This document shows, piece after piece, positions 5,811 to 43,281 of a stretch of DNA of 45,548 nt. The stretch comes from an uncultured Bacilli bacterium (GTDB lineage Bacteria; Bacillota_I; Bacilli_A; RF39; UBA660): NCBI GenBank assembly GCA_944371305.1, contig CALVXM010000008.1, positions 1 to 45,548 on the forward strand, written 5' to 3'. The notes beneath the pieces were generated by a model. It had not been told where the DNA came from, ran no database searches, and saw nothing but the letters and a program-made list of their open reading frames with translations. The position numbers were made by a program, and so were the translations under genes. The stretch's first letter is position 1; every line of letters starts with the position of its first letter.

Positions 5811-6695
5811 ATGGTAAATTTTGTCAATTTTAACTCACAACTTCGTAATATATTAGAAAGGATTTACATTGATTTAAAAAATAAATATGATAAATATGAA
5901 GTAGGAGTTAAATATTATGATTTTTTTGAAAATTTAAAAATAGAAAATCCAGAATTATATCAAAATATTATTGGATTATGTTTTATTGACCACTATCGAA
6001 TCTTATTACATTTAAAAGAAGAAAAACTAATTAATCCTGACAATATGGAAATATTAGATTTATATAGTCAAATTGAAGATATTGACGATTTAAATATTTT
6101 TTTAGAAGAACACCCTGATTTAATATTTGAAATGGTTTTTGGTAGTTTTAAATTTAAATCTTTTACTATCAAAGGACAAGCTTGCCTAATTTCTCAATTA
6201 AGTGATGAAGAAACTCTTAAGTTTAATAAATTTTCTATCTTTGAAAAATATAATATCTTTAAAAAAAGAAATTTAGAAGATTTTATTATTTTATACAAAA
6301 ATACTATTAATATTAATCCTGATGATATTATCTTAAGAAAATTTGCTATTATCGAAATCCTTAATATTCTAGATTTTTTGTTATCTAAAAATGTCAAAAA
6401 CTTTCAAGAATTAATATTAAAAATGACCAAAATATATTATAAATGGAAAAAATTTTTACAAGCAATGAAACCAGATTTGATTTTCGGTAATGATAAAGAA
6501 ATTATTGATTTAATTGAAAGTACGCCAATTGATGATATTTTATACACTTTAGCCTATAATGAAGAATATTTAGAAATAATTGTCGAAGATTTTTTAGAAT
6601 ATGAAACCAATTCAATAATTGATAAGGTAGAAGTTGATGATCAATTTGAACAATTAGTTCCTTATGAAGTAAAGATAAAATTAAAAGAAGTATAA
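5811..6695 (+). CDS. Unidentified cytoplasmic protein, 294 residues
   Basis: I do not recognise this family. The protein is rich in Ile, Leu, Lys, Asp and Glu, has no signal peptide or clear membrane segment, and looks mostly helical. There is one histidine-containing segment, CFIDHYRILLHL, near residues 57-68. It has its own promoter and a purine-rich GAGGAAGTGG ribosome site, and stands as a single-gene unit between the pnp terminator and the convergent HIT gene, whose stop codon abuts this one with no bases between. A lineage-specific gene is likely. Confidence 0.75.
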   Translation: MVNFVNFNSQLRNILERIYIDLKNKYDKYEVGVKYYDFFENLKIENPELYQNIIGLCFIDHYRILLHLKEEKLINPDNMEILDLYSQIEDIDDLNIFLEEHPDLIFEMVFGSFKFKSFTIKGQACLISQLSDEETLKFNKFSIFEKYNIFKKRNLEDFIILYKNTININPDDIILRKFAIIEILNILDFLLSKNVKNFQELILKMTKIYYKWKKFLQAMKPDLIFGNDKEIIDLIESTPIDDILYTLAYNEEYLEIIVEDFLEYETNSIIDKVEVDDQFEQLVPYEVKIKLKEV

Positions 6696-7343: not shown

Positions 7344-8534
7344 ATGTTTCGTGAAGATTTTCAATTACTTGATAAAAATATTATTTATTTAGATAATGCA
7401 GCTACTTCATTAAAACCAAGAACAGTTATTGCAAGCATTCAAGATTATTATAATAATTATAGCGCTAATGCGCATCGCGGTGACTATGATTTAAGTTTGC
7501 AAGTTGATTATAAATATGAAGAAACAAGAAATTTAGTTAAAAATTTTATTAATGCTAAAAAAAGCAAAGAAATAATTTTTACTAGTGGTACAACCGATTC
7601 ATTAAATAAAATTATATTTGGTTATTTTAAAGATTATTTAAATGATAATGATGAAGTTCTGCTTACTAAAAGTGAACATGCATCCAATGTTTTACCTTGG
7701 TTTGAATTAGCTAGTTTAAAAAGTTTAAGAATAAATTATATTCCTTTAGATAATTTAGAATTGACATTAGAAAATGTCAAAAAAACTATTACTGAAAGAA
7801 CCAAAGTAATTAGTATTGCTCATATTACTAATGTAGTAGGGGATATACGTCCAATTAAAGAAATTATCGAATATGCTCATAGTAAAGGAATTTTAGTTAT
7901 CGTCGATGGAGCACAAAGTGTCGCTCATCTAAAAGTTGATGTTCAAGATTTAGATATTGATTTTTTAGCTTTTTCTGCACATAAGATGTTAGGACCAACC
8001 GGTGTTGGGATTTTATATGGAAAAGAATGTCTGTTAAATAATATAAAGCCAATTATTTTTGGCGGAGGAATGAATGCTAGTTTTCAATTTGATGGAACAA
8101 GGGTTTATAGTGAATTACCTCATTTATTAGAAGCTGGTACTCCTAATATTGCGGGAATTATTGGTTTTGGAGAAACTATTAAATATTTAAATACTATTGG
8201 TATGGATAAAATAACTGAATATGAGAAACAATTAAAAAAATATGCAGTTGAAAAGTTAAAAAAAGTTAAAGACATTGTCATTTATAATGAGAATAGTGAA
8301 AGTGGAATTATCACCTTCAATATTAAAGATATTTTTGCTCAAGATTTAGCTATTTATCTTAATAAATATAATATTTGCGTAAGAGCTGGTAACCACTGTG
8401 CGAAAATTTTAAAAGATGACTTAGGTATTAAAAATACCTGTCGGATTAGTCTATATTTTTATAATACTAAAGAAGAAATCGATTATTTAGTAAAAGTTTT
8501 AAACAATCCTAACTTAAAAGAAGAAATAATTTGA
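7344..8534 (+). CDS. sufS: Cysteine desulfurase, SufS/CsdA type
   Basis: PLP-dependent class V aminotransferase-fold enzyme that takes sulfur from cysteine for Fe-S cluster or thiolation pathways. Visible residues are the PLP lysine in AFSAHKMLGPTGVGILYG (about residue 212) and the active-site cysteine loop RAGNHCAKIL (about 346-355), in place of the usual RAGHHCAQP. Length of 396 residues is normal for SufS. The start follows a perfect AGGAGGTGA. The gene stands alone: no sufBCDU neighbours are present, so its partner scaffold must be elsewhere. It could also supply sulfur to MnmA, encoded at 26 kb. Confidence 0.93.
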   Translation: MFREDFQLLDKNIIYLDNAATSLKPRTVIASIQDYYNNYSANAHRGDYDLSLQVDYKYEETRNLVKNFINAKKSKEIIFTSGTTDSLNKIIFGYFKDYLNDNDEVLLTKSEHASNVLPWFELASLKSLRINYIPLDNLELTLENVKKTITERTKVISIAHITNVVGDIRPIKEIIEYAHSKGILVIVDGAQSVAHLKVDVQDLDIDFLAFSAHKMLGPTGVGILYGKECLLNNIKPIIFGGGMNASFQFDGTRVYSELPHLLEAGTPNIAGIIGFGETIKYLNTIGMDKITEYEKQLKKYAVEKLKKVKDIVIYNENSESGIITFNIKDIFAQDLAIYLNKYNICVRAGNHCAKILKDDLGIKNTCRISLYFYNTKEEIDYLVKVLNNPNLKEEII

Positions 8535-8601: not shown

Positions 8602-9522
8602 ATGAAAAAGGTAGTATTGTTATTAATATTATTATTACTAACTGGTTGCAATAACAATTATTATAGTACTAATTTATTTTATATGGATACTGTTATTAAT
8701 ATCAAAATATATAATGCTAAACAAGAAAAAGTAGAAAAAGCTTTTAAAGAAATCGAAAGTATATATCAAAAATATGATAATTTAACTGATTTCTATGATC
8801 AAAATAGTGAATTATCAAAGTTGAATAACAATGTTAATATTAATATTTCCGATGAACTTTGGCAATTAATTAAGTTTGGTGATGAGTGGTATGATAAAAG
8901 TAATGGTTTATTAAATATTAATATTGGTGCACTAACTAAAGTATGGCATGATTTTAGAGAAAATCATACTGAATTACCTGATGTTAAAAATATCGTTATA
9001 GAAAGATTAAATATTGTCGATGATCGAATAACTAATGATAATGTAAATATTGATTTAGGTGCTATTGCTAAGGGTTATGTCACGCAAATAGTAGGGGAAT
9101 ATTTAAAAAATCAAGGCTTAGAATATTATATAATCAATGCGGGAGGTAATGTTTTAGTAGGAAAAAGCCCTAAGGGATATTATAATATTGGTATTGCCAG
9201 TCCAATTAGTGATGAGACTTTTGAGATTATTAAAGGAGAGAATATCAGTGTGGTAACTAGTGGTGGCTATGAAAGATTTTATCAATATAATGGTAATTTA
9301 TATCATCATATCATCGATCCTAATACCAAATATCCAGCCAATTACATGAAAAGTGTAACTGTAATAGGAAAAAATAGTGGCTTATGCGATGCTTTATCGA
9401 CGACTTTATTTTTAATGGATATTGAAAGTGGGAAAGAATTTATCAGAGATTATGATGTTGATGTTATTTGGTTTACTAATGATGATGAAATAATAAAAAG
9501 TGATGGTTTTAGATATGAATAA
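8602..9522 (+). CDS. apbE: FAD:protein FMN transferase lipoprotein (ApbE/FmnB)
   Basis: Extracytoplasmic flavinyltransferase that attaches FMN to threonine or serine of FMN-binding domains. At 306 residues it has a lipoprotein signal with lipobox LLTGC (Cys about 16). Family motifs include GAIAKGYV (about 154-161), NAGGNVLVG (about 193-201), VTSGGYERFY and HHIIDPNTKYP (DPxTG-type, with K for G), then DALSTTLFLM. Its likely substrate is the FMN-binding lipoprotein encoded three genes later. It overlaps the next gene by 8 nt. Together with EetA, EetB and PplA-like genes it matches the fmnB position in the Listeria flavin-based electron transfer locus (established knowledge; the functional link here is inference). 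Confidence 0.95.
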   Translation: MKKVVLLLILLLLTGCNNNYYSTNLFYMDTVINIKIYNAKQEKVEKAFKEIESIYQKYDNLTDFYDQNSELSKLNNNVNINISDELWQLIKFGDEWYDKSNGLLNINIGALTKVWHDFRENHTELPDVKNIVIERLNIVDDRITNDNVNIDLGAIAKGYVTQIVGEYLKNQGLEYYIINAGGNVLVGKSPKGYYNIGIASPISDETFEIIKGENISVVTSGGYERFYQYNGNLYHHIIDPNTKYPANYMKSVTVIGKNSGLCDALSTTLFLMDIESGKEFIRDYDVDVIWFTNDDEIIKSDGFRYE

Positions 9523-9868
9523 AAATGATATCAGATTAATTGTCATAATTATCTTAATCGCTTTGATAATTCTATTCATATTTTCAATCACTAAAAAGAA
9601 GGCTAAAATAGCTAATGTATACTATGGAAATGATTTAATTTTAAATATTAATTTAGGTATAGATAAGACATACGAAGTAATGGGAGAAAATGGCAAAGTT
9701 GTTATCGAAGTTTTAGATGATAAAATTAGAGTAGTCGAAGAAAATAGTCCTTATCATTTATGTTCTAAGCAAGGTTTTATATCTAATGCCGGACAATCAA
9801 TAATTTGCCTACCTAATAAAATTATTATTAAATTACCTAATGAAGATATTGATACCGAGGTGAGTTAA
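9515..9868 (+). CDS. eetA: NusG domain II protein, EetA-like, membrane-anchored
   Basis: A protein of about 117 residues with one N-terminal membrane helix (RLIVIIILIALIILFIFSI) followed by an extracytoplasmic beta-rich NusG-II (Lin0431-like) domain with the typical CSKQGFISNAGQSIICLPNKI segment. Start: ATG 9515 overlaps the apbE stop by 8 nt; an ATG at 9500 is possible but would add five residues ahead of a normal N-terminus. In Listeria, EetA carries the same domain and works with EetB in flavin-based extracellular electron transfer. The adjacency to apbE and the EetB-like gene supports orthology, which remains inferred. Confidence 0.82.
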   Translation: MNKNDIRLIVIIILIALIILFIFSITKKKAKIANVYYGNDLILNINLGIDKTYEVMGENGKVVIEVLDDKIRVVEENSPYHLCSKQGFISNAGQSIICLPNKIIIKLPNEDIDTEVS

Positions 9869-9869
9869 T

Positions 9870-10373
9870 TTGAAAAAATTTACACGTTTATCATTATTAT
9901 TGGCTTTATCGGTAGCCTTAAATATTATTGAATCTAGTTTACCTCTTTTAAATGATTATATTCCAGGACTAAAATTGGGCTTAGCTAATATTGTTACTTT
10001 ATTTATAATTTATAAATATGGTTTAAAAGAAGCATTATATGTCGGTATCTTAAGAGTATTTTTAGTTGGTATTTTAAGAACAGGCGTTTTTAGTACTCAT
10101 TTTTTCTTTAGTTTATCAGGATGTCTTTTAAGTATTATTTTTATGTGTTTGGCTAAAAGATTTTTAAATTTATCAGTTATTGGCATCAGTATTATTGGCT
10201 CAATTGCTCATTCCCTTGGACAAATTTTAGTAGCTATTTTACTTCTTCAGATGCCAGCAATGATTTATTATTTACCTTGGTTATTGATATTTTCAATTCC
10301 TACAGGTTTATTAGTTGGAATAATCGGTAAACAACTTATCAATCATTTTGAAGATGATTTGCTTTTGTATTAA
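9870..10373 (+). CDS. eetB: Gx transporter / heptaprenyl diphosphate synthase component I family, EetB-like
   Basis: A 167-residue multi-spanning membrane protein with four or five hydrophobic segments and the family signature IPGLKLGLANIVTLF (about residues 30-44), plus RVFLVGILRTG and HSLGQILVA. Start is TTG 9870, one base after the eetA stop, with GAGGTGA inside the end of eetA. This family is annotated as Hpre_diP_synt_I, but in Listeria the homologue EetB is a component of extracellular electron transfer. Transcription is probably shared with apbE and eetA. Confidence 0.85.
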   Translation: MKKFTRLSLLLALSVALNIIESSLPLLNDYIPGLKLGLANIVTLFIIYKYGLKEALYVGILRVFLVGILRTGVFSTHFFFSLSGCLLSIIFMCLAKRFLNLSVIGISIIGSIAHSLGQILVAILLLQMPAMIYYLPWLLIFSIPTGLLVGIIGKQLINHFEDDLLLY

Positions 10374-10381
10374 AATTATTG

Positions 10382-10387
10382 TATAAT
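10382..10387 (+). promoter_or_regulatory. -10 box of the FMN-binding lipoprotein gene
   Basis: A perfect TATAAT lies 18 nt before the ATG, with AGGAGG between. The lipoprotein may therefore be expressed separately from apbE-eetA-eetB. Confidence 0.65.
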
Positions 10388-10405
10388 TTAAAATAGGAGG
10401 ATGTT

Positions 10406-10855
10406 ATGAAAAAGATATTATTTATTACTGCTTTAATGCTAACGTTATTGTTTACAGGATGTCAAAAGCAATTAAAAGAAGGAATTTATGAAGGAAGCGC
10501 TATTGATACGTATGGTGGTGAAGAAAACACGGCTACAGCTCGTGTTACAATCGATCAAGATGGTAAAATAACTGATGTATATTTAGATACTACATATACG
10601 AAAGATGGAATTGAAACAACTAAAAAAACTTTAGGTAATGAGTATGGTATGAAAACTGGTAACAGTGATTATGGCCAAGCCGAATATGAGTGGTTTGAAC
10701 AAATTGAAGCTTTAGAACAAGCGATAATCGACAATCAAGGGATTACCTTTTTAAATATCGATAGTGATGGTTATACTGACGCTGTAAGTAGTTGTACTAT
10801 TAAAGTAGATGCATTATATGAAGCTTTAGAAAATGCCTTAAACAAAGCAAAATAG
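10406..10855 (+). CDS. pplA: FMN-binding lipoprotein, PplA-like
   Basis: A 149-residue lipoprotein: signal peptide with lipobox LFTGC (Cys 19), then one FMN-binding domain. The flavinylation motif, normally SGAT, appears here as SSCT (residues 128-131, in DAVSSCTIKVDAL), keeping the acceptor threonine 131. The segment ETTKKTLGNEYGMK and WFEQIEALE are typical of PplA-like electron shuttles. Listeria PplA has two such domains, this protein only one. It is the probable substrate of the ApbE at 8602. A terminator follows immediately. Confidence 0.85.
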   Translation: MKKILFITALMLTLLFTGCQKQLKEGIYEGSAIDTYGGEENTATARVTIDQDGKITDVYLDTTYTKDGIETTKKTLGNEYGMKTGNSDYGQAEYEWFEQIEALEQAIIDNQGITFLNIDSDGYTDAVSSCTIKVDALYEALENALNKAK

Positions 10856-10922: not shown

Positions 10923-11579
10923 ATGAGGGTTTTAATCGTCGATGATGAAGAAAGAATCAGAACACTGATTAAAGAATATTGTTTGAATGAAAATTTTGAA
11001 GTACTGGAAGCTAGTGATGGAATAAGTGCTTTAGATAATATTAAAAATAATCAAATTGATATTGTCATTCTCGATATAATGATGCCTAAAATGGACGGAT
11101 TAACTGCATATAAAGAAATTAAAAAATATAATATTCCAACAATCATTTTATCAGCTAGAACTGAAGAATATGACAAATTGATTGGATTTGATTTAGGAGT
11201 AGATGATTATGTTACAAAACCATTTAGTCCTAAAGAATTGATTGCAAGAATCAAGGCTGTTACTAAACGTTTTAATGATTTGGATGATATATATATTTAT
11301 AAAGATTTAAAAATCGATTTCAAAGGTCATATTGTCTTTATTAAAGATGAAGAACTAAAGTTAACTCCAAAAGAATATGATTTATTAGTTTATTTTATAA
11401 ATAATAAAAATAAAGCTTTATCTAGAGAAGAATTATTATCTAAAATTTGGGGATATGATTTTTTTGGTGATGATCGAACTATCGATACTCATATTAAAAT
11501 GCTACGCAACAATTTAGGTGAATATCGTGATTTGATTCAAACAGTGAGAGGAATGGGTTATAAATTTGAAATCAAATAA
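10923..11579 (+). CDS. OmpR/PhoB-family response regulator
   Basis: A 218-residue regulator. The receiver domain has the acidic pair in IVDDEER (residues 6-7), the phosphoacceptor Asp in VILDIMMPKMDG (about 51), and the lysine of TKPFSPKEL (about 100). The C-terminal winged-helix DNA-binding domain ends with the usual RTIDTHIKMLRNNLG and VRGMGYKFE. It overlaps the kinase gene and is almost certainly its partner. Closeness to the flavin-redox genes suggests, but does not show, that these are targets. Confidence 0.95.
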   Translation: MRVLIVDDEERIRTLIKEYCLNENFEVLEASDGISALDNIKNNQIDIVILDIMMPKMDGLTAYKEIKKYNIPTIILSARTEEYDKLIGFDLGVDDYVTKPFSPKELIARIKAVTKRFNDLDDIYIYKDLKIDFKGHIVFIKDEELKLTPKEYDLLVYFINNKNKALSREELLSKIWGYDFFGDDRTIDTHIKMLRNNLGEYRDLIQTVRGMGYKFEIK

Positions 11580-12933
11580 AAATAAATTAAAAATCCATAT
11601 CTGGCTTTATTTAATAATTTTTACTTTAGTTATAATGCTATTTCTATGGTTTTTTCAAGTTGTTTTTATCGATAGTTATTATGAATATAGTAAAACTAAA
11701 CAAATAAAAAAAACAACTTTGAAAATTATCGAAAATTATGATGTCGATGAAGAAGCTTTAGACAAGTTATCATATGAAGAAAATGTTTGTATTGAAATTG
11801 TCAAAAATAGAATGACTATTTATACTTCTAATGATTCTAATCGTGGATGTATTATAAGTGGTAATAAATATAAAGATGATTTTTATTCTCTTGATAAAAA
11901 TGAACAAACTTATAAATTAATTAATCCTATTTTTAATACAAAATCATTAATATATGCAAGGAAATATAACGACGATATTACTATCTTTGTCAATGCTTCT
12001 TTAGAGCCTTTAGATAATACAATTTTAATTTTATCTAATCAATTGATTATCGTATCGATTATCGTCATTGTTCTAGCACTTATTATTGGATATTTTATCT
12101 CAAAAAGAATTAGTAAACCAATTGAAAAAATGAATAAAAATGCTAAACAACTAGCTAATGGTAATTATGAATTTACTTTTGATAATACTTCTAATATTTA
12201 TGAAATCGATGAATTAGCTAATACATTAAACTATGCTAAAGAAGAATTAGAACAAACTGATGAATTAAGAAAAGACTTATTAGCTAATGTTTCACATGAT
12301 CTTAAAACGCCTCTTACAATGATTAAAGGTTACGCAGAAATGATTCGGGATTTAAATTCTGATAACGCAGAAAAAAGAACTGAAAATTTAAATGTTATCA
12401 TTGAAGAAAGTGAAAGATTAAATATTTTAGTTGAAGATCTTTTAACCTTATCGAAAATACAGGCCAATAAGGATACTTTAGATAAAGAAAGTTTTGATAT
12501 TGTTGAATTGATTAGTAATATTATAAAACGTTATGGTATTTATAAAGATACTGAGGGTTATATTTTTGAAATAAATGCACCGAGTAAAGTAATAATTAAA
12601 GCTGATAAGAAAAAAATCGAACAAGTAATTTACAATTTAATCAATAATGCTATTAATTATACTGGCGACGATAAAAAAGTAATTATCAACGTTTTAGTTG
12701 ATAAAAATGTTAGAGTCGAAATAAAAGATACTGGAAAAGGAATAAAAAAAGAAGATTTACCACATATTTGGGACAAATATTATCATTCTAAGAAAAAACA
12801 TAAACGTAATATTATTGGAACAGGAATTGGTCTTTCAATTGTTAAAACAATTTTAGAAAGTCATAAATTTAAATATGGGGTAGAAAGTAAAAAAAATAAA
12901 GGCACGACATTTTATTTTGAAATTAATAAGTAA
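11566..12933 (+). CDS. Sensor histidine kinase
   Basis: A 455-residue membrane kinase: a first membrane helix (about 9-30), extracytoplasmic sensor of about 115 residues, a second helix (about 148-172), HAMP (KRISKPIEKM), HisKA with NVSHDLKTPLTMIKG (phosphorylated His about 245), and HATPase with N box NLINNAINYTG, G1 DTGKGI and G2 GTGIGLSIVK. The start is TTG 11566, overlapping the regulator by 14 nt, with GAGGAATGGG upstream. The sensor domain contains two cysteines (in NVCIEIV and RGCIISG), which could form a disulfide outside the membrane. Confidence 0.93.
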   Translation: MKSNKNKLKIHIWLYLIIFTLVIMLFLWFFQVVFIDSYYEYSKTKQIKKTTLKIIENYDVDEEALDKLSYEENVCIEIVKNRMTIYTSNDSNRGCIISGNKYKDDFYSLDKNEQTYKLINPIFNTKSLIYARKYNDDITIFVNASLEPLDNTILILSNQLIIVSIIVIVLALIIGYFISKRISKPIEKMNKNAKQLANGNYEFTFDNTSNIYEIDELANTLNYAKEELEQTDELRKDLLANVSHDLKTPLTMIKGYAEMIRDLNSDNAEKRTENLNVIIEESERLNILVEDLLTLSKIQANKDTLDKESFDIVELISNIIKRYGIYKDTEGYIFEINAPSKVIIKADKKKIEQVIYNLINNAINYTGDDKKVIINVLVDKNVRVEIKDTGKGIKKEDLPHIWDKYYHSKKKHKRNIIGTGIGLSIVKTILESHKFKYGVESKKNKGTTFYFEINK

Positions 12934-21713: not shown

Positions 21714-23111
21714 ATGAAAAAACAAAGCATATGGTTAGAAAATTTCAAAAATCAAACAAAAAAATTAGATACAAATGAAGAATGTGATGTTTTAATTATC
21801 GGTGGCGGAATAACAGGTTTATCAACAGCTTATCATTTGAAAGGTAAAAATTTAAAAGTTATTTTAGTTGAACGTAATGAAATTGGCAGTGGTATAACTT
21901 CTAAAACTACAGGAAAAATTACTTATTTACAAGAATTAATTTATTCTAAACTATATAAAGAAAAAGGTAAAGAAGTTGCCAAATTATATTTAAATTCTCA
22001 ATTAGATGCAATTAAAATAGTTACCAATATTATTAAAAAAGAAAAAATTGATTGTGATTTAGAACAAGTTAAATCTTATGTTATCGGAAATAATTTGGAA
22101 AAAGAAAAAGATATCTTAAAAGAGTTTAATATTAAAGTTTTCGAAGATAAAAATGCTATTTTTGTCGATGACACTTATGTCTTTCATCCAATAAAATATT
22201 TGGTTAAAATAAAAGAAATTTTAGAAAATAATAATATTAAAATATACGAACATACCAATATTATTGAAATAAAAAATGATATTGCTTATACTAAAGAATA
22301 TCATATAAAAGCCAAAAATATTGTTTTAGCTTGTCATTATCCTTTCTTTTTATTACCATTATTGATGCCGATTAAAGGATATTTAGAAAAATCTTATATC
22401 GCTTCTATTTCTAATATTGAAAATAAAAAGCTATCTGCCATAACATCAAACAATCCGACTATCTCTTTACGTTATCACTTAAATAATTTAATCTATTTAA
22501 ATGGTTCTCACGCTATCTCTAATCATCAAAATGAACAGAAAAATTTTGATAATTTAATTAATGAAATTAAAAAATATGGTACTTTTGATTATATTTGGTC
22601 TAATCAAGATATAGTTACTAATGATCACTTACCTATTATTGGAAAAATTAACGATTCATTATTAATTGCCACTGGTTACAACACTTGGGGGATGACAAAT
22701 GGGTCATTAGCTGGAAAAATTATAAGTGATTTAATTTTACAAATTGATAATAAATATACGGATTTATTTGCCGTTAAAAGAGATAAAAGTTTATATGAAA
22801 TTAAAAATATTTTAAATGAAATAGTTAGAAATGGGAAAAGTTTTACTTTAAGTAAATTAATAAATAATAAAAAATGGTATTCTAAACAAGTACAATTTAA
22901 AGCAATTAAAAATGATAAGGTTGGTATATATATTGATGAAAACAATCAAAAACATATTGTCTATAATAAATGCCCACATCTTAAATGTGGCCTTATCTTC
23001 AATGAATTTGAAAAAACATGGGATTGTCCTTGTCATGGTTCTAGATTTGATATGGATGGTAATTTAATATTAGGACCAAGTCGTTATAATATAACATATA
23101 AAAAACAGTAA
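21714..23111 (+). CDS. FAD-dependent oxidoreductase with C-terminal Rieske [2Fe-2S] domain (YhfW-like)
   Basis: A 465-residue fusion. Residues about 20-370 form a DadA/GlpO-type FAD oxidoreductase: dinucleotide fold DVLIIGGGITGLSTAYHL (about 24-41), SGITSKTTGKIT and the closing GYNTWGMTNGSLAGKI FAD segment. Residues about 385-465 form a Rieske domain with cluster ligands in CPHLKCG and CPCHGSRFD. The same architecture occurs in Bacillus YhfW, whose substrate is unknown. It is a single-gene unit with TGGTGAAA before the ATG. Confidence 0.9.
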   Translation: MKKQSIWLENFKNQTKKLDTNEECDVLIIGGGITGLSTAYHLKGKNLKVILVERNEIGSGITSKTTGKITYLQELIYSKLYKEKGKEVAKLYLNSQLDAIKIVTNIIKKEKIDCDLEQVKSYVIGNNLEKEKDILKEFNIKVFEDKNAIFVDDTYVFHPIKYLVKIKEILENNNIKIYEHTNIIEIKNDIAYTKEYHIKAKNIVLACHYPFFLLPLLMPIKGYLEKSYIASISNIENKKLSAITSNNPTISLRYHLNNLIYLNGSHAISNHQNEQKNFDNLINEIKKYGTFDYIWSNQDIVTNDHLPIIGKINDSLLIATGYNTWGMTNGSLAGKIISDLILQIDNKYTDLFAVKRDKSLYEIKNILNEIVRNGKSFTLSKLINNKKWYSKQVQFKAIKNDKVGIYIDENNQKHIVYNKCPHLKCGLIFNEFEKTWDCPCHGSRFDMDGNLILGPSRYNITYKKQ

Positions 23112-27020: not shown

Positions 27021-27647
27021 TTATTTAATAAAATTAATAATTGCTTTAACTAATTTAGGCATTAAATAAGCATCATATACCCCCATTAAAACCACTATTA
27101 TTAAAACAATGATTAAAATTTTAAAATATTTATTCATTATTAATTTAAAATCTAACGTTTTTTTCTTAAAAATAACATAAATCATTTTAAAAGAAAAGCT
27201 CATAGCATACATAACTAAAAACAAAATAAATAAAAGGGATAATACTTGTCCTGGAAAAGTATAAATAATACTAAATAATATTCCTTTTGCCTTAAAAGAA
27301 CTAATAATCGCTCCAATACTAAATCCTAATATGAAAGTTTTACTGAAAAACATAAATATAATTATTGGCAATCCAATTACCGATATACCTAATAACCAAA
27401 TAATTAGAATATAACTAATATTACTGAACAAATTATTTTTTAGAGCTAAAAAACAATCTAATTTATTATTTTCGATACTACTTAAAAAATTATTTAAATG
27501 ATCAACTACTAAAGTTTGATCAGAACTATTTAAAATACTTACAAAAACTGCTCCTGCTGTTATTCCTATAATTGTCAATATTAAAAGAAATAGAAATATT
27601 TTTTTGTCCAATTTGATTCTAATTTTTAGTTTGTCCATTATTTTCAT
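27021..27647 (-). CDS. spoIIM: Stage II sporulation protein M
   Basis: An integral membrane protein of about 208 residues with five hydrophobic segments. The pattern FFSKTFILGFSIGAIISSFKAKGILFSIIYTFPGQ is spread over about residues 100-135 and matches SpoIIM, part of the SpoIIDMP engulfment complex of endospore formers. ATG 27647 follows TTAGGTGAT; the upstream in-frame GTG is part of that site. Its presence, with spoIVB and ylbJ, suggests the organism sporulates or did so recently. Confidence 0.85.
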   Translation of the reverse strand: MKIMDKLKIRIKLDKKIFLFLLILTIIGITAGAVFVSILNSSDQTLVVDHLNNFLSSIENNKLDCFLALKNNLFSNISYILIIWLLGISVIGLPIIIFMFFSKTFILGFSIGAIISSFKAKGILFSIIYTFPGQVLSLLFILFLVMYAMSFSFKMIYVIFKKKTLDFKLIMNKYFKILIIVLIIVVLMGVYDAYLMPKLVKAIINFIK

Positions 27648-27734
27648 CTTTATCACCTAATTAAGAATATTAAAAATAATAAAAAATATTCCTTTTTTTA
27701 TTATTTTATAGTATAATTGTTACTAGGTGATTTT

Positions 27735-27824
27735 ATGCGAAACGAAAAAGTTGGAAAAGTAATGGCAATTGTGATGCTTTTAGTTATGGTTTTATCAACC
27801 GTCGCATCTTTAATTTTTATCTAA
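27735..27824 (+). CDS. Small single-span membrane protein, 29 residues (DUF4044-like)
   Basis: A tiny gene with TATAAT (27712-27717), AGGTGAT and ATG in the standard spacing, and a strong terminator after it. The product has a basic N-terminus (MRNEKVGKV) and one helix (AIVMLLVMVLSTVASLIFI). Size and layout fit the DUF4044 family of very short Firmicutes proteins, a resemblance I infer from pattern only. It is divergent from spoIIM. Confidence 0.7.
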   Translation: MRNEKVGKVMAIVMLLVMVLSTVASLIFI

Positions 27825-27828
27825 ACAT

Positions 27829-27868
27829 AAAAAACTAAATAAAATTTTTATATCTTATTTAGTTTTTT
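27829..27868 (+). terminator. Terminator after the 29-residue membrane protein gene
   Basis: AAAAACTAAATAA (27830-27842) pairs perfectly with TTATTTAGTTTTT (27855-27867), with a 12-nt loop. The remaining gap to 28002 holds no gene that I can support. Confidence 0.85.
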
Positions 27869-28002
27869 TATTAACATTCATTAATTATAAGTGGATCTGT
27901 TCCAAAAATTATTCTATTAACTTCCAATCTTTGACATTATACTTAATTATACATAGGAACTATTTTTATTAAATATAAAAATAACATTTTTCTGTTTGAA
28001 AT

Positions 28003-28028
28003 TTCAAAAAAAGAGACAATGGTCTCTT
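28003..28028 (-). terminator. Terminator after spoIVB
   Basis: On the minus strand AAGAGAC pairs with GTCTCTT (28011-28017 with 28022-28028) and is followed by seven T. It reaches the spoIVB stop codon. Confidence 0.8.
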
Positions 28029-28996
28029 TAATTTTCTCCTTCTTCTAACATGTTAGTTATAAAAATACCATAACCCTTATGAGGATTATCGACAACTACA
28101 TGAGTTACCGCACCGATAATTTGATTATTTTGAATAATTGGTGAACCACTCATACCTTGAACAATACCATTAGTTTTATTCAATAATTCTTGATCAGTTA
28201 TTTTAAATGAAATATTTTTAGTACTAGTTGAATTATTTAGTTTAGTAATTTCTATTTCATATTTACTTACAACATCACCATCTAAGACCGTTAAAATTTC
28301 AGCTTTACCGGTCTTAATTTCATCAGGTTTTGCTACCTTGTATAATTTTGAATTATCAAAATCATCAGTATAATTGCCAAATATTCCTTTGGTAGTATTT
28401 TCAAAAATACTACCATTAATTGAATCAGTCATTATTTTAGCATTCTTCTCACCAGGCGTACCATTAGAACTTGGTTCAATATCAGTTACATTAGACTCAA
28501 AAATACTACCACCTGATATATCTAATATTTTACCAGTTCTACTATCTGTTATCTCATGACCTAATGCGCCAAATAATTTGGTGTTTGGATCAATATAAGT
28601 AAGAGTTCCGATGCCTGTTACACTATCCTTAACATAAATACCAGTTTTATAATTATTATTATCTTTAACTAATTGTAAATTGATAGTTTTTATATCATTA
28701 TCTCTTTTAAACTCTACTTTAATATTACCATCGCTAGTTTTAATTTTATTAGTTAGGTCATATATTGAAGCTATTTTTTGATCATTGATCGATGTAATTA
28801 CGTCTCCAATTTCTAATCCTGCTTTACTAGCTATATACTCATCATTAACCTTATAAAAACCAACTACCATAACACCATCAGTTTTTAATTCAATGCCGAT
28901 ATTTTCCCCACCAACAATTATGTAATCTGAATATGCAAAAGCTTTTGGTATAAAAAGAGTAACAAGAAGAAGGGAAAGAAATGTTTTTTTAAACAT
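28028..28996 (-). CDS. spoIVB: SpoIVB serine peptidase (S55) with PDZ domain
   Basis: A 322-residue secreted peptidase. Signal peptide with AFAYS cleavage region (about 18-22), the family opening GGENIGIELKTDGVMVVGF, a PDZ domain (about 45-110), and the S55 catalytic domain with His in LFGALGHEITD and Ser in VQGMSGSPI (about 290), ending HKGYGIFITNML. In Bacillus this protease, secreted from the forespore, triggers pro-sigma-K processing. It lies downstream of xseA-xseB as in Bacilli, but no spo0A follows here. AAGGAGATG precedes the ATG. Confidence 0.93.
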   Translation of the reverse strand: MFKKTFLSLLLVTLFIPKAFAYSDYIIVGGENIGIELKTDGVMVVGFYKVNDEYIASKAGLEIGDVITSINDQKIASIYDLTNKIKTSDGNIKVEFKRDNDIKTINLQLVKDNNNYKTGIYVKDSVTGIGTLTYIDPNTKLFGALGHEITDSRTGKILDISGGSIFESNVTDIEPSSNGTPGEKNAKIMTDSINGSIFENTTKGIFGNYTDDFDNSKLYKVAKPDEIKTGKAEILTVLDGDVVSKYEIEITKLNNSTSTKNISFKITDQELLNKTNGIVQGMSGSPIIQNNQIIGAVTHVVVDNPHKGYGIFITNMLEEGEN

Positions 28997-39992: not shown

Positions 39993-41414
39993 ATGATGAG
40001 ACAATTTGATTTTGAAAAAATACCGGTTGTTGAAGTTGTAAATGAAATAATGGTTGACGCTTCTAAAAGAGGCGCTTCTGATATTCACTTCGATCCGTTA
40101 GATGAACATATGAAAATTAGAATTAGAATTGATGGTATCTTACACAATTATGCTGAGGTACCAAATTCAATTAAGAAAAATCTAATAACTCGTATTAAAA
40201 TCATTTCAGGTATGAATATTACTGAATCACGTCTACCACAAGATGGCGCTATTAAAGCAACATTACAAGGCACTAATTTGGATTTGCGTGTTTCTTGTAT
40301 CCCAACTAGCAACGGTGAGAAAATAGTTATTCGTATCTTAGACTATACAATGAGTTTAGCTGGTGTTGAAACTTTAGGTTTTAGTGAAGATAACTATAAA
40401 AAAGTATTAGAGATGATTTCAAAACCAAACGGCATTATTTTAGTTACTGGTGCTACTGGTACTGGTAAATCTACGACAGTTTATTCTATATTACAAAGGT
40501 TAAATACTGAACAAGCTAATGTTGTTACAGTTGAAGATCCAGTTGAAATGAATATTGAAGGAATTAATCAAATTCAAACTAACAGTGAAATCGGACTTAC
40601 CTTCGCTACTGCTTTACGTTCTATCTTACGTCAAGATCCTAACATTATAATGATTGGAGAAATTCGTGATACTGAAACGGCTAAAATTGCTGTTCGTGCC
40701 TCTATTACTGGTCACTTGGTATTATCTACTATCCATACCAATAACTCATTAAATACTATCGAACGTCTACTTGATATGGAAGTTGAACGTTACTTATTAG
40801 CTAGTTCACTAGAAGGAATCATATCACAAGTATTAGCTCGTAAATTATGTCCACATTGTCGTACCTTAAAGAAAACTAATGAATATGAAAAAGAATTATT
40901 TAAAACAGTTTTAGGCAAAGATGTCGATGAGATTTATACAACTGAAGGTTGTGAGGAATGTGGTAACGGATATGCTGGTCGTATAGCTATTCACGAAGTA
41001 TTATTATTCAATCAAGAAATAAGAGATGCTATTAGTGCTGGTATTAGACGTGATAAATTAAGAGATTTGGTATATAAATCAGGCGTTAATACTTTGTTAG
41101 AAGATGGCCTAGAGAAAGTTTTAATGGGATTAACTACTGTTGAAGAAGTAATTAAATTAATTGAATTAGAAGATGATGAAAAAGGTTCTAAAGCTTATGG
41201 ATTAAAAGCAGCATTAAGTAATACCGATTTAACTAAAACAACTACGAAAAATAATGCTGAGCCAAAAGTTCAAAAGAAGGAAGAAAAACCAGAAATTGTA
41301 ACTGAATCATCAACTAAAGATGAATTAGTTATCGAAACTCCTAATGATAATCAACAAACAGAAGATAGACCACTTACTTTAAATGATTTAATCAATAGAA
41401 GTACTAAAAATTAA
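39993..41414 (+). CDS. pilB: Type IV pilus/type II secretion assembly ATPase (PilB/GspE)
   Basis: Hexameric ATPase that powers pilus extension. The 473-residue protein lacks the usual N1 domain and begins with ASDIHFDPLDEHMKIRIRIDG (about 27-47). Walker A is GATGTGKSTT (about 153-162), the Asp box includes VTVEDPVE, Walker B IIMIGEIRDTETA, the His box TGHLVLSTIHTNNS, and a tetracysteine zinc motif CPHC to CEEC. A polar tail of about 75 residues (from about 400), rich in Lys, Thr, Glu and Asn, ends in LTLNDLINRSTKN and is not part of the usual enzyme. No pilC or pilD is in the window. Confidence 0.93.
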   Translation: MMRQFDFEKIPVVEVVNEIMVDASKRGASDIHFDPLDEHMKIRIRIDGILHNYAEVPNSIKKNLITRIKIISGMNITESRLPQDGAIKATLQGTNLDLRVSCIPTSNGEKIVIRILDYTMSLAGVETLGFSEDNYKKVLEMISKPNGIILVTGATGTGKSTTVYSILQRLNTEQANVVTVEDPVEMNIEGINQIQTNSEIGLTFATALRSILRQDPNIIMIGEIRDTETAKIAVRASITGHLVLSTIHTNNSLNTIERLLDMEVERYLLASSLEGIISQVLARKLCPHCRTLKKTNEYEKELFKTVLGKDVDEIYTTEGCEECGNGYAGRIAIHEVLLFNQEIRDAISAGIRRDKLRDLVYKSGVNTLLEDGLEKVLMGLTTVEEVIKLIELEDDEKGSKAYGLKAALSNTDLTKTTTKNNAEPKVQKKEEKPEIVTESSTKDELVIETPNDNQQTEDRPLTLNDLINRSTKN

Positions 41415-41435
41415 GATGAATTTCTTAATTTTTTT
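41408..41435 (+). terminator. Terminator after pilB
   Basis: AAATTAAGA (41408-41416) pairs with TCTTAATTT (41423-41431), followed by T; the stop codon is in the stem. Confidence 0.75.
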
Positions 41436-41446
41436 GTTTTATCAAA

Positions 41447-41470
41447 TTAAAAAGAAGATTTAAATCTTCT
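41447..41470 (-). terminator. Terminator after the large prepilin gene
   Basis: AGAAGATTT/AAATCTTCT (41453-41461 with 41462-41470) is followed on the minus strand by TTTTTAA. The loop is formed by the innermost bases. Confidence 0.65.
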
Positions 41471-43232
41471 ATATTTCATAAGGATCAGACCAAATCCCAC
41501 TCCCACCATTAATTTTGACACTAGAATTTATAACTATAACTGGACGAATTGTATTAGGATTAGTAACATTAACGATATCAGTATTTCCATAATTATAAAC
41601 TAGCCATATTTGGTTATTATTAGTATAAGGAGTTAAAGTCCAATAAGAAGCACTGTTTTCCATATCAGAGTTAGAAGTATAACCAGCTGTTAAAATACTG
41701 CTACTTTGTCCTGATAACATCTCACTCATTCTAATTAATCCAACAGTCGAATTAATTGTTCTAGTTGGTTTTGTCTGTTCTAAGGCAACTGTATAATTAG
41801 TTCCATAATCTGTTTTATTTTGATAAAAAGGATAATCACGTACCATTTTATCACGATTAGTAGAGTCAGTACTAGCAACTAACCAATTTAAAACATCACC
41901 ATTTAATTTTTGACCAATATTACCATCAGTAGTGAACGTATTACTTGCTCCAAAATTCATTAAATATTTAGTCGCAACTGGTTCTTCATAAAAACCATCT
42001 AATATTAATTTAGTATTACCATCATCATCAATTCCCACAACACGATAAATTTTATTAGCAAATTTAACATACTCACCAATCGTAGCTGTATTCAAGTTAT
42101 CATTAACATCAATAAATTTATTCTCATTCAAAACATATGGTCCATTGTCTTTAGTCCAATTACTTGCAATCTTACCACTTCCTGAAGTAATTGTCGCAGT
42201 CGGTAAAATATTAATCACTGGTCGAATTCCACGATTATTGGTCGACATAAGACTATTACTATCACCATTATAATGCATATACCAAACCTTGGTCGCATCA
42301 TAAGGCGTTAACATCCAATGACTTTGATTATTATATAAGTACGAAGTATTATCGCCAGCCAAATTATACTCATCTAATGTTATTAAACCAACTTTAGAAG
42401 CTGATGTTAAAGCATCATTAGAACAAACTGTTCGATTAGAACTTTTAGTAGTTGTCGCTTCATAACACCATACTTGATCAGCAATAATATCTTTATTTTT
42501 TAAATTATTATAAAAATAATTATTTAACCAATCTTTAATAAAACTGCCGTCGTAATTTAAAGCATTATTTCTCGTTCCAAAAATAACAGTAGATAAATTA
42601 TCTTCGGCTACCAATTTTATGCTATTATCGGCATTAATTCCCATTATCCGCCATAAGAATCCTGAATACCAAATATAATTATTATCAGGATTACCTTTTA
42701 AATAGCATCCTCCCATATAACTATAATTGTTATCATTTGTAAGAGTACAACCACTACCATCAGTATTTAAATATGGAAACTGTTCTAACACTTTATCTTC
42801 AATTTTAGTAATTATAGGCACAACTGGTTCTTCTGGCGTTTGAGATGCTCCATTTATTGTAAAACTGCCATCTGATTGTAGTTCAAATTCATAATTATTA
42901 CTCTTTACCTTTAATTTGGTTACTTTGCCATTTTCATATTTTACTTCTAAGACTTCGGCATTCCCTAAACTTACCATTTGGCTGACATCATCAATGGTTA
43001 CTCCATCATCATCATTGCAAATGTCTATACTTCCATCTAATTGATTCTTCATTTCTGATGTCGCGCAGTAATTATTAATGCTATTCATTATCATACTTGC
43101 TTCTGATTTTCCGGCACTTTTTCTTGCATCCTCAATCACATTTAATATGATTGGTGTGGCTATCAAAGCTATTATAGCTAATATTATGATTACTGCTAAT
43201 AATTCTATTAATGTAAATCCGCATTTCTTCAT
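41469..43232 (-). CDS. Prepilin with two tandem DUF6273-like surface modules
   Basis: A large prepilin of about 587 residues. MKKCGFTLIELLAVIIILA is a standard class III signal (cleavage after Gly 5, Glu at +5), and a pseudopilin region with ATSEMKN and DICNDDDG follows to about residue 140. Two homologous C-terminal modules then occur: GFLWRIMGINADNSIKLVAE to HWMLTPYDATKVWYMH to RGIRPVINI, and NKIYRVVGIDDDGNTKLILD to YWTLTPYTNNNQIWLV to NTIRPVIVI. ATG 43232 has GAGGAGA upstream; the ATG at 43274 lacks a ribosome site and would spoil the signal. It converges on pilB. Confidence 0.88.
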   Translation of the reverse strand: MKKCGFTLIELLAVIIILAIIALIATPIILNVIEDARKSAGKSEASMIMNSINNYCATSEMKNQLDGSIDICNDDDGVTIDDVSQMVSLGNAEVLEVKYENGKVTKLKVKSNNYEFELQSDGSFTINGASQTPEEPVVPIITKIEDKVLEQFPYLNTDGSGCTLTNDNNYSYMGGCYLKGNPDNNYIWYSGFLWRIMGINADNSIKLVAEDNLSTVIFGTRNNALNYDGSFIKDWLNNYFYNNLKNKDIIADQVWCYEATTTKSSNRTVCSNDALTSASKVGLITLDEYNLAGDNTSYLYNNQSHWMLTPYDATKVWYMHYNGDSNSLMSTNNRGIRPVINILPTATITSGSGKIASNWTKDNGPYVLNENKFIDVNDNLNTATIGEYVKFANKIYRVVGIDDDGNTKLILDGFYEEPVATKYLMNFGASNTFTTDGNIGQKLNGDVLNWLVASTDSTNRDKMVRDYPFYQNKTDYGTNYTVALEQTKPTRTINSTVGLIRMSEMLSGQSSSILTAGYTSNSDMENSASYWTLTPYTNNNQIWLVYNYGNTDIVNVTNPNTIRPVIVINSSVKINGGSGIWSDPYEI

Positions 43233-43281
43233 AAATATTCTCCTCATTTCTTTATAACTTAATTTTAATATCATCTTTATT

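Follow-up and report, generated by a model that had tools for sequence, protein, structure and literature searches.

A cluster of four flavin-related genes at positions 8602-10855 of the window (the whole stretch of DNA that was analysed, 45,548 nucleotides) raises the question of which electron donor it serves. The original prediction regarded the cluster as a minimal module of flavin-based extracellular electron transfer (EET) and left the donor unclear. The host is a small gut bacterium of the Candidatus Faecisoma group within RF39, a group of uncultured gut Bacilli. Its assembly comprises 1.14 Mb in 47 contigs and is 92% complete. Candidatus Faecisoma is, according to its authors, the genus CAG-878 of the order RF39 in GTDB (PMC8035907).

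We compared about 230 genomes overall. Seventeen further genomes belong to the same genus; sixteen of them together with the window genome are referred to as the crown (n=17), and the remaining one, G015, represents a sister lineage outside the crown. The family survey covers 193 genomes of 148 genera, and the tree of RnfC has 68 rows.

All four Pfam profiles match, and the four genes are indeed consecutive (Table 1). The open reading frame of the EetA-like protein was listed from a GTG codon at 9500, but the ATG at 9515 is the likelier start. The ApbE-type protein contains the motifs GAIAKGY, TSGGYER, HHIIDP and DALST, and the solved structure closest to it is that of another FAD:protein FMN transferase, 7esa (E 2.6e-38), which we take to be Listeria FmnB. 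The NusG-II protein is the only one of its kind in the genome; it is probably an accessory protein. The EetB-like protein has the lowest dN/dS in the module (0.09). Although the lipoprotein matches PF04205 weakly, three features back the assignment: a solved homologue, 2kzx, which aligns over nearly the full length (E 6.5e-11); a lipobox (LLFTGC); and conservation of a D-A-V-S-x-C-T site, with DAVSSCT as the predicted site of flavinylation. Both the lipobox and the Thr site are kept in 21 aligned relatives, where the site follows the pattern D-A-[VI]-S-x-C-T. An AlphaFold2 single-sequence model of this protein (pLDDT 53) was too poor for use.

Table 1. Features of the cluster and its neighbourhood (coordinates in the window)
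Feature	Coordinates	Strand	Evidence
SufS-like cysteine desulfurase, directly upstream of apbE	7344..8534	+	PF00266, 448 bits
ApbE-type FAD:protein FMN transferase, FmnB-like lipoprotein	8602..9522	+	PF02424, 222 bits (Pfam)
EetA-like NusG-II protein, one N-terminal TM	9515..9868	+	PF07009, 90 bits
EetB-like ECF-S flavin exporter subunit	9870..10373	+	PF07456 (Hpre_diP_synt_I), 137 bits; 6 predicted TM
PplA-like single-domain FMN-binding lipoprotein	10406..10855	+	PF04205 (FMN_bind), 23.8 bits, cut-off 22.0
OmpR-type response regulator and WalK/PhoR-like histidine kinase, neighbouring the module	10923..12933	+	Pfam, synteny

The spacing is operon-like, with an overlap of 8 nt between the ApbE and EetA genes and a gap of 1 nt between those of EetA and EetB. 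As the order of the four genes is conserved in contigs of the same genus as well as in four further genera within the family, the cluster is not a chance arrangement. No riboswitch or other Rfam element was found near it, the sole Rfam match of the window being a tRNA. The regulator and kinase genes adjoin the module in most contigs of the genus and also in another genus (G027), and this synteny makes the pair a possible regulator of the module. The SufS-like gene has a conserved upstream position in the genus; it is a context gene with a possible role in iron-sulfur supply.

Several other features of the window deserve mention. A 294-aa open reading frame between the genes of PNPase and HIT (5811-6695) has no Pfam match and evolves fast, with 33-48% identity in the genus versus about 70-90% for its neighbours. 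At 21714-23111 an FAD-dependent oxidoreductase (DAO) is fused to a Rieske [2Fe-2S] domain. Two regions, 27021-28996 and 39993-43274, encode the sporulation proteins SpoIIM and SpoIVB, in a small gut genome, together with a T2SSE pilus ATPase and an N-methylated pilin-like protein.

Genome-wide searches point to a probable donor outside the window. Another contig (G000:C6) encodes RnfC of 418 aa followed by an RnfD-RnfG fusion of 461 aa (RnfDG), in which PF03116 is fused to PF04205 and PF00175 is absent. We refer to this pair as half-Rnf; its locus is unlinked to the flavin cluster. The genome has exactly two FMN_bind proteins, the lipoprotein and RnfDG. All crown genomes share the two-gene rnfC-rnfDG arrangement, and searches with PF02508 (RnfA/E) and PF04060 (the iron-sulfur domain of RnfB) gave no match in any of them. 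Both are present in G015 and in other genera of the family; the same searches matched in about 20 genera besides G015.

The locus of G015 reads rnfC-rnfDG-rnfE-rnfA-rnfB-M23-M50-rplU-rpmA (M23 and M50 are peptidases, rplU and rpmA encode L21 and L27), and 13 crown contigs read rnfC-rnfDG-M23-M50-rplU-rpmA, with an optional PDDEXK transposase gene after rnfDG. Since rnfE-rnfA-rnfB still separate rnfDG from the shared flanking genes in G015, the crown lineage has undergone a clean deletion of rnfEAB. The Rnf contig of the window genome ends 91 nt past rnfDG, so the absence of RnfA, RnfE and RnfB from this genome is based on the search of the whole assembly and on its relatives. In several Faecisoma species (loci L098, L099, L100, L106, L107 and L109) the gene at the deletion site, directly after rnfDG, is that of a PDDEXK_2 family transposase. 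One further locus (L176) has two open reading frames of RnfE and RnfA size after rnfDG; neither matches the HMMs, the first resembles RecX on visual inspection, and they were rejected as candidates.

Across the family, EetB occurs in 40 of the 193 genomes, FMN_bind in 43 and both in 39 (Fisher 4e-35, uncorrected for phylogeny). With subunits denoted by their letters, the states in the family form a gradation that runs from full Rnf through C-DG-E-A, which lacks B (G182), C-D-A (G066), C-DG and C-D to C next to a D that can barely be recognised. The C-DG state is found in the Faecisoma crown, G062, G179 and L171, the last being assigned from its locus, as its genome beyond the locus was outside the RnfA/E search. 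This state requires three changes on the RnfC tree, which suggests about three origins of half-Rnf in the family. The C-D state requires nine changes, five of which are forced by well-supported branches. Weak RnfC_N matches in the survey (about E 1e-6) are highly diverged RnfC-like proteins, only two of which are included in the tree, on long branches. Every organism with half-Rnf is an uncultured organism represented by a metagenome-assembled genome (MAG).

EetB accompanies all 18 C-DG rows of the tree (16 from the crown plus G062 and G179, with L171 outside the EetB scoring) and 25 of 26 rows with full Rnf, but none of the 18 C-D rows. The flavin module thus tracks RnfG rather than RnfA, RnfE or RnfB. 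The C-D genomes have lost the FMN site of RnfD and most of the motifs GGFGxNxFNPAL and FMATDPVT, all of which are kept in every C-DG genome shown. This motif evidence is clear; the co-occurrence statistics of EetB with RnfG are modest, with four independent phylogenetic contrasts on well-supported branches, none of them discordant, which is too few for significance.

The survey also revealed other unusual forms. Many genomes of the RF39 family have RnfC-RnfD pairs without RnfG (L266-L268, L270-L280, L282, L284 and others), and the motifs for FMN and riboflavin are gone from the RnfD of these pairs; RnfC in such pairs may be co-opted for another use or decaying. RnfD-RnfG-RnfG fusions of about 590 aa with two tandem FMN-binding domains were observed in L170, L171, L174, G018, G020 and G182. 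Lone RnfD genes of about 283-305 aa, with no other rnf gene recognised nearby (L190, L193, L197, L200, L202, L206, L222, L179 and L192), belong to MAGs of Spirochaetes, Halanaerobiaceae and Syntrophomonadaceae. In G053, rnfCDGEAB-apbE-eetA-eetB forms one cluster (L143).

The existence of a graded series allows one to suppose that half-Rnf is decaying towards the RnfC-RnfD-only state of many relatives, and that the flavin module is a leftover with no current function. We consider this unlikely. RnfDG is 459-461 aa long in all 17 crown sequences, and the median dN/dS in the crown is 0.16 for RnfDG and 0.13 for RnfC. Crown RnfC keeps the NADH/FMN motif GLGGAGFPT and two CxxCxxCxxxCP motifs for [4Fe-4S] clusters. 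Crown RnfD keeps the Thr aligned to the FMN carrier T156 of A. woodii and the Asp aligned to its riboflavin binder D249, and the RnfG domain keeps D-T-x-S-x-A-T. Judging by these motifs, half-Rnf retains its predicted sites for NADH, iron-sulfur clusters, riboflavin and both FMN attachments, and it is under purifying selection. All three origins have been retained as well. An AlphaFold2 model of RnfDG (pLDDT 76) matches RnfD structures and the FMN_bind domain, as expected; the FMN loop of RnfD has low confidence in it, so no cofactor distances were derived.

In all crown Faecisoma species checked, the ApbE motif [ST]-G-x-T has S, T, K or R in place of its Gly. The replacement is coordinated in two ApbE substrates, RnfG (L097:92-1477) and the lipoprotein (10406-10855); G015 and other genera keep the Gly. 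Its loss could weaken flavinylation of both proteins, yet RnfD of A. woodii likewise has no such Gly (DTVTTAT) and is flavinylated (PMC11889175).

We return to half-Rnf as the probable electron donor. In the solved Rnf complexes electrons follow a U-shaped path from ferredoxin through RnfB, RnfA/E, RnfG, RnfD and RnfC to NAD+ (PMC11889175; PMC9588780). Half-Rnf corresponds precisely to the RnfG-RnfD-RnfC arm on the NAD side, the ferredoxin side (RnfB and RnfA/E) having been deleted; run from NADH, electrons would reach the outer FMN of RnfG and go no further inside. We consider it probable that the flavin export and flavinylation module, together with the carrier lipoprotein, serves half-Rnf in one-way transfer from NADH to an extracytosolic acceptor.

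From the sequences we infer the electron flow, its direction, the flavinylation and the partnership with the lipoprotein as follows. EetB would export FAD and ApbE would attach FMN covalently, so that the two would supply flavin for RnfDG and for the lipoprotein. Electrons of NADH would enter the FMN and the two [4Fe-4S] clusters of RnfC, pass to the riboflavin and covalent FMN of RnfD and then to the covalent FMN of the RnfG domain. The lipoprotein, a predicted ApbE substrate encoded beside apbE and eetB, would be the natural next carrier and would hand electrons to a putative extracytosolic acceptor without quinones or Ndh2. Because the two loci are unlinked, the pairing of the lipoprotein with half-Rnf is drawn from their co-occurrence. 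The lipoprotein also occurs in relatives with full Rnf, so its presence does not single out the half complex. For EcfT and EcfA, the expected partners of EetB, a crude motif search in the 69% of the genome that was read gave no match.

The analysis identified neither a terminal acceptor nor a terminal reductase, which would fit half-Rnf and the module performing local redox work in the envelope (repair, detoxification or passing electrons inward to NAD+) rather than export. The entire Rnf complex can run in either direction (PMC11889175), and flavinylated proteins have many envelope functions (PMC8238504). However, the genome has no flavinylated reductase domain, its two FMN_bind proteins being the lipoprotein and RnfDG; a flavinylated terminal reductase was rejected for the same reason. 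Such envelope work seems to us slightly less probable even than decay.

The reading that the cluster belongs to an ordinary Listeria-type EET system, in which an Ndh2 that escaped detection and a quinone, either taken up or made by the cell, feed the lipoprotein, is very improbable. The Listeria locus (FmnB, EetA, EetB and PplA) does have counterparts for all four adjacent proteins, 7esa is the closest solved structure to ApbE, and Lactiplantibacillus plantarum is reported to use exogenous quinones (PMC10746273). Here, in contrast, there is no FmnA in the cluster, and the lipoprotein has one FMN domain. PplA of Listeria has two. The absence of Ndh2 and demethylmenaquinone genes, originally claimed for the window, extends to the whole assembly within the reach of Pfam: UbiA (PF01040) has no match, with a positive control matched in 14 of 14 genomes, and Ndh2 is not recognisable, the sole full-length match to Pyr_redox_2 (PF07992) being a 291-aa frame of thioredoxin-reductase size and the other three being partial. 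On these grounds EET through Ndh2 and quinones was rejected; the tracking of RnfG by the module across the family also argues against it.

The four families and the absence of Ndh2 and UbiA stand from the original prediction, but the four genes by themselves do not make an EET core. EetB exports flavins, and ApbE attaches them to proteins; the gene of EetB lies together with that of EetA in 3,328 genomes and with apbE in 2,169 (PMC9973259). The set of ApbE, EetA and EetB is common and has already been linked with Rnf; its most frequent neighbours are Rnf or EET genes, and by itself it does not amount to Listeria-type EET.

Least credible is that the module serves an intact Rnf in which only divergence or assembly gaps hide RnfA, RnfE and RnfB: the truncated Rnf contig and incomplete genome would allow it, but both profiles fail throughout the crown while matching elsewhere, and 13 relatives with intact flanks span the site without these genes, for which an assembly gap was rejected.

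Half-Rnf shares with the Rnf ferredoxin:NAD+ oxidoreductase RnfC, RnfD and RnfG with all their cofactor motifs and the association with ApbE and EetB. It differs in the fusion of RnfD to RnfG and in having neither the ferredoxin-side subunit RnfB nor RnfA and RnfE with their iron-sulfur centre. Clusters described by Rivera-Lugo and co-authors (PMC9973259) have EetB beside Rnf, as in G053; those clusters are defined by RnfB, whereas the present genome lacks RnfB and carries its rnf and flavin loci apart from each other. Also close are the NQR/RNF-like systems, 127 one-arm clusters mainly of Actinobacteria and CPR (Meheust et al. 2021, PMC8238504; also Huang et al. 2024, PMC11334425). They too are partial Rnf/Nqr systems with a single transmembrane electron path in place of two, combine an RnfD/NqrB membrane unit with an FMN domain of the RnfG/NqrC type, and are proposed to pass electrons one way from NAD(P)H to an extracytosolic acceptor, a direction that half-Rnf would share. 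However, their RnfD has a C-terminal NqrF-like PF00175 domain and no flavinylation site of its own. The NADH unit of half-Rnf is RnfC, its RnfD keeps FMN-Thr and is fused to RnfG, and its hosts are RF39 Bacilli. RnfDG thus falls outside the definition of NQR/RNF-like proteins (PF03116 and C-terminal PF00175 in one protein).

More generally, none of the definitions of flavinylated systems that we consulted in the literature covers the RnfC-RnfDG type, and published searches miss it because they require RnfB, Ndh2 or PF00175. No RnfC-RnfDG system is described in the literature searched, which includes few subscription papers or preprints.

Structural papers dispute which subunit moves ions, RnfD (C. 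tetanomorphum) or RnfA/E (A. woodii) (PMC12174285). A naturally occurring Rnf that has lost RnfA/E but retains every cofactor site of RnfC, RnfD and RnfG is a direct test object for this dispute. It is a doubtful but conceivable extension that in RF39 gut bacteria the Rnf ion pump was repeatedly turned into a two-protein, NADH-driven exporter free of quinones and cytochromes, with RnfD still moving Na+. If true, Na+ movement by RnfC-RnfDG would bear directly on the choice between RnfD and RnfA/E as the pump. The family itself presents Rnf reduction as a graded series that starts with the entire complex and ends with RnfC beside an RnfD past recognition, and within it half-Rnf would, if our reading is true, give small-genome gut bacteria a quinone-free outlet for electrons.
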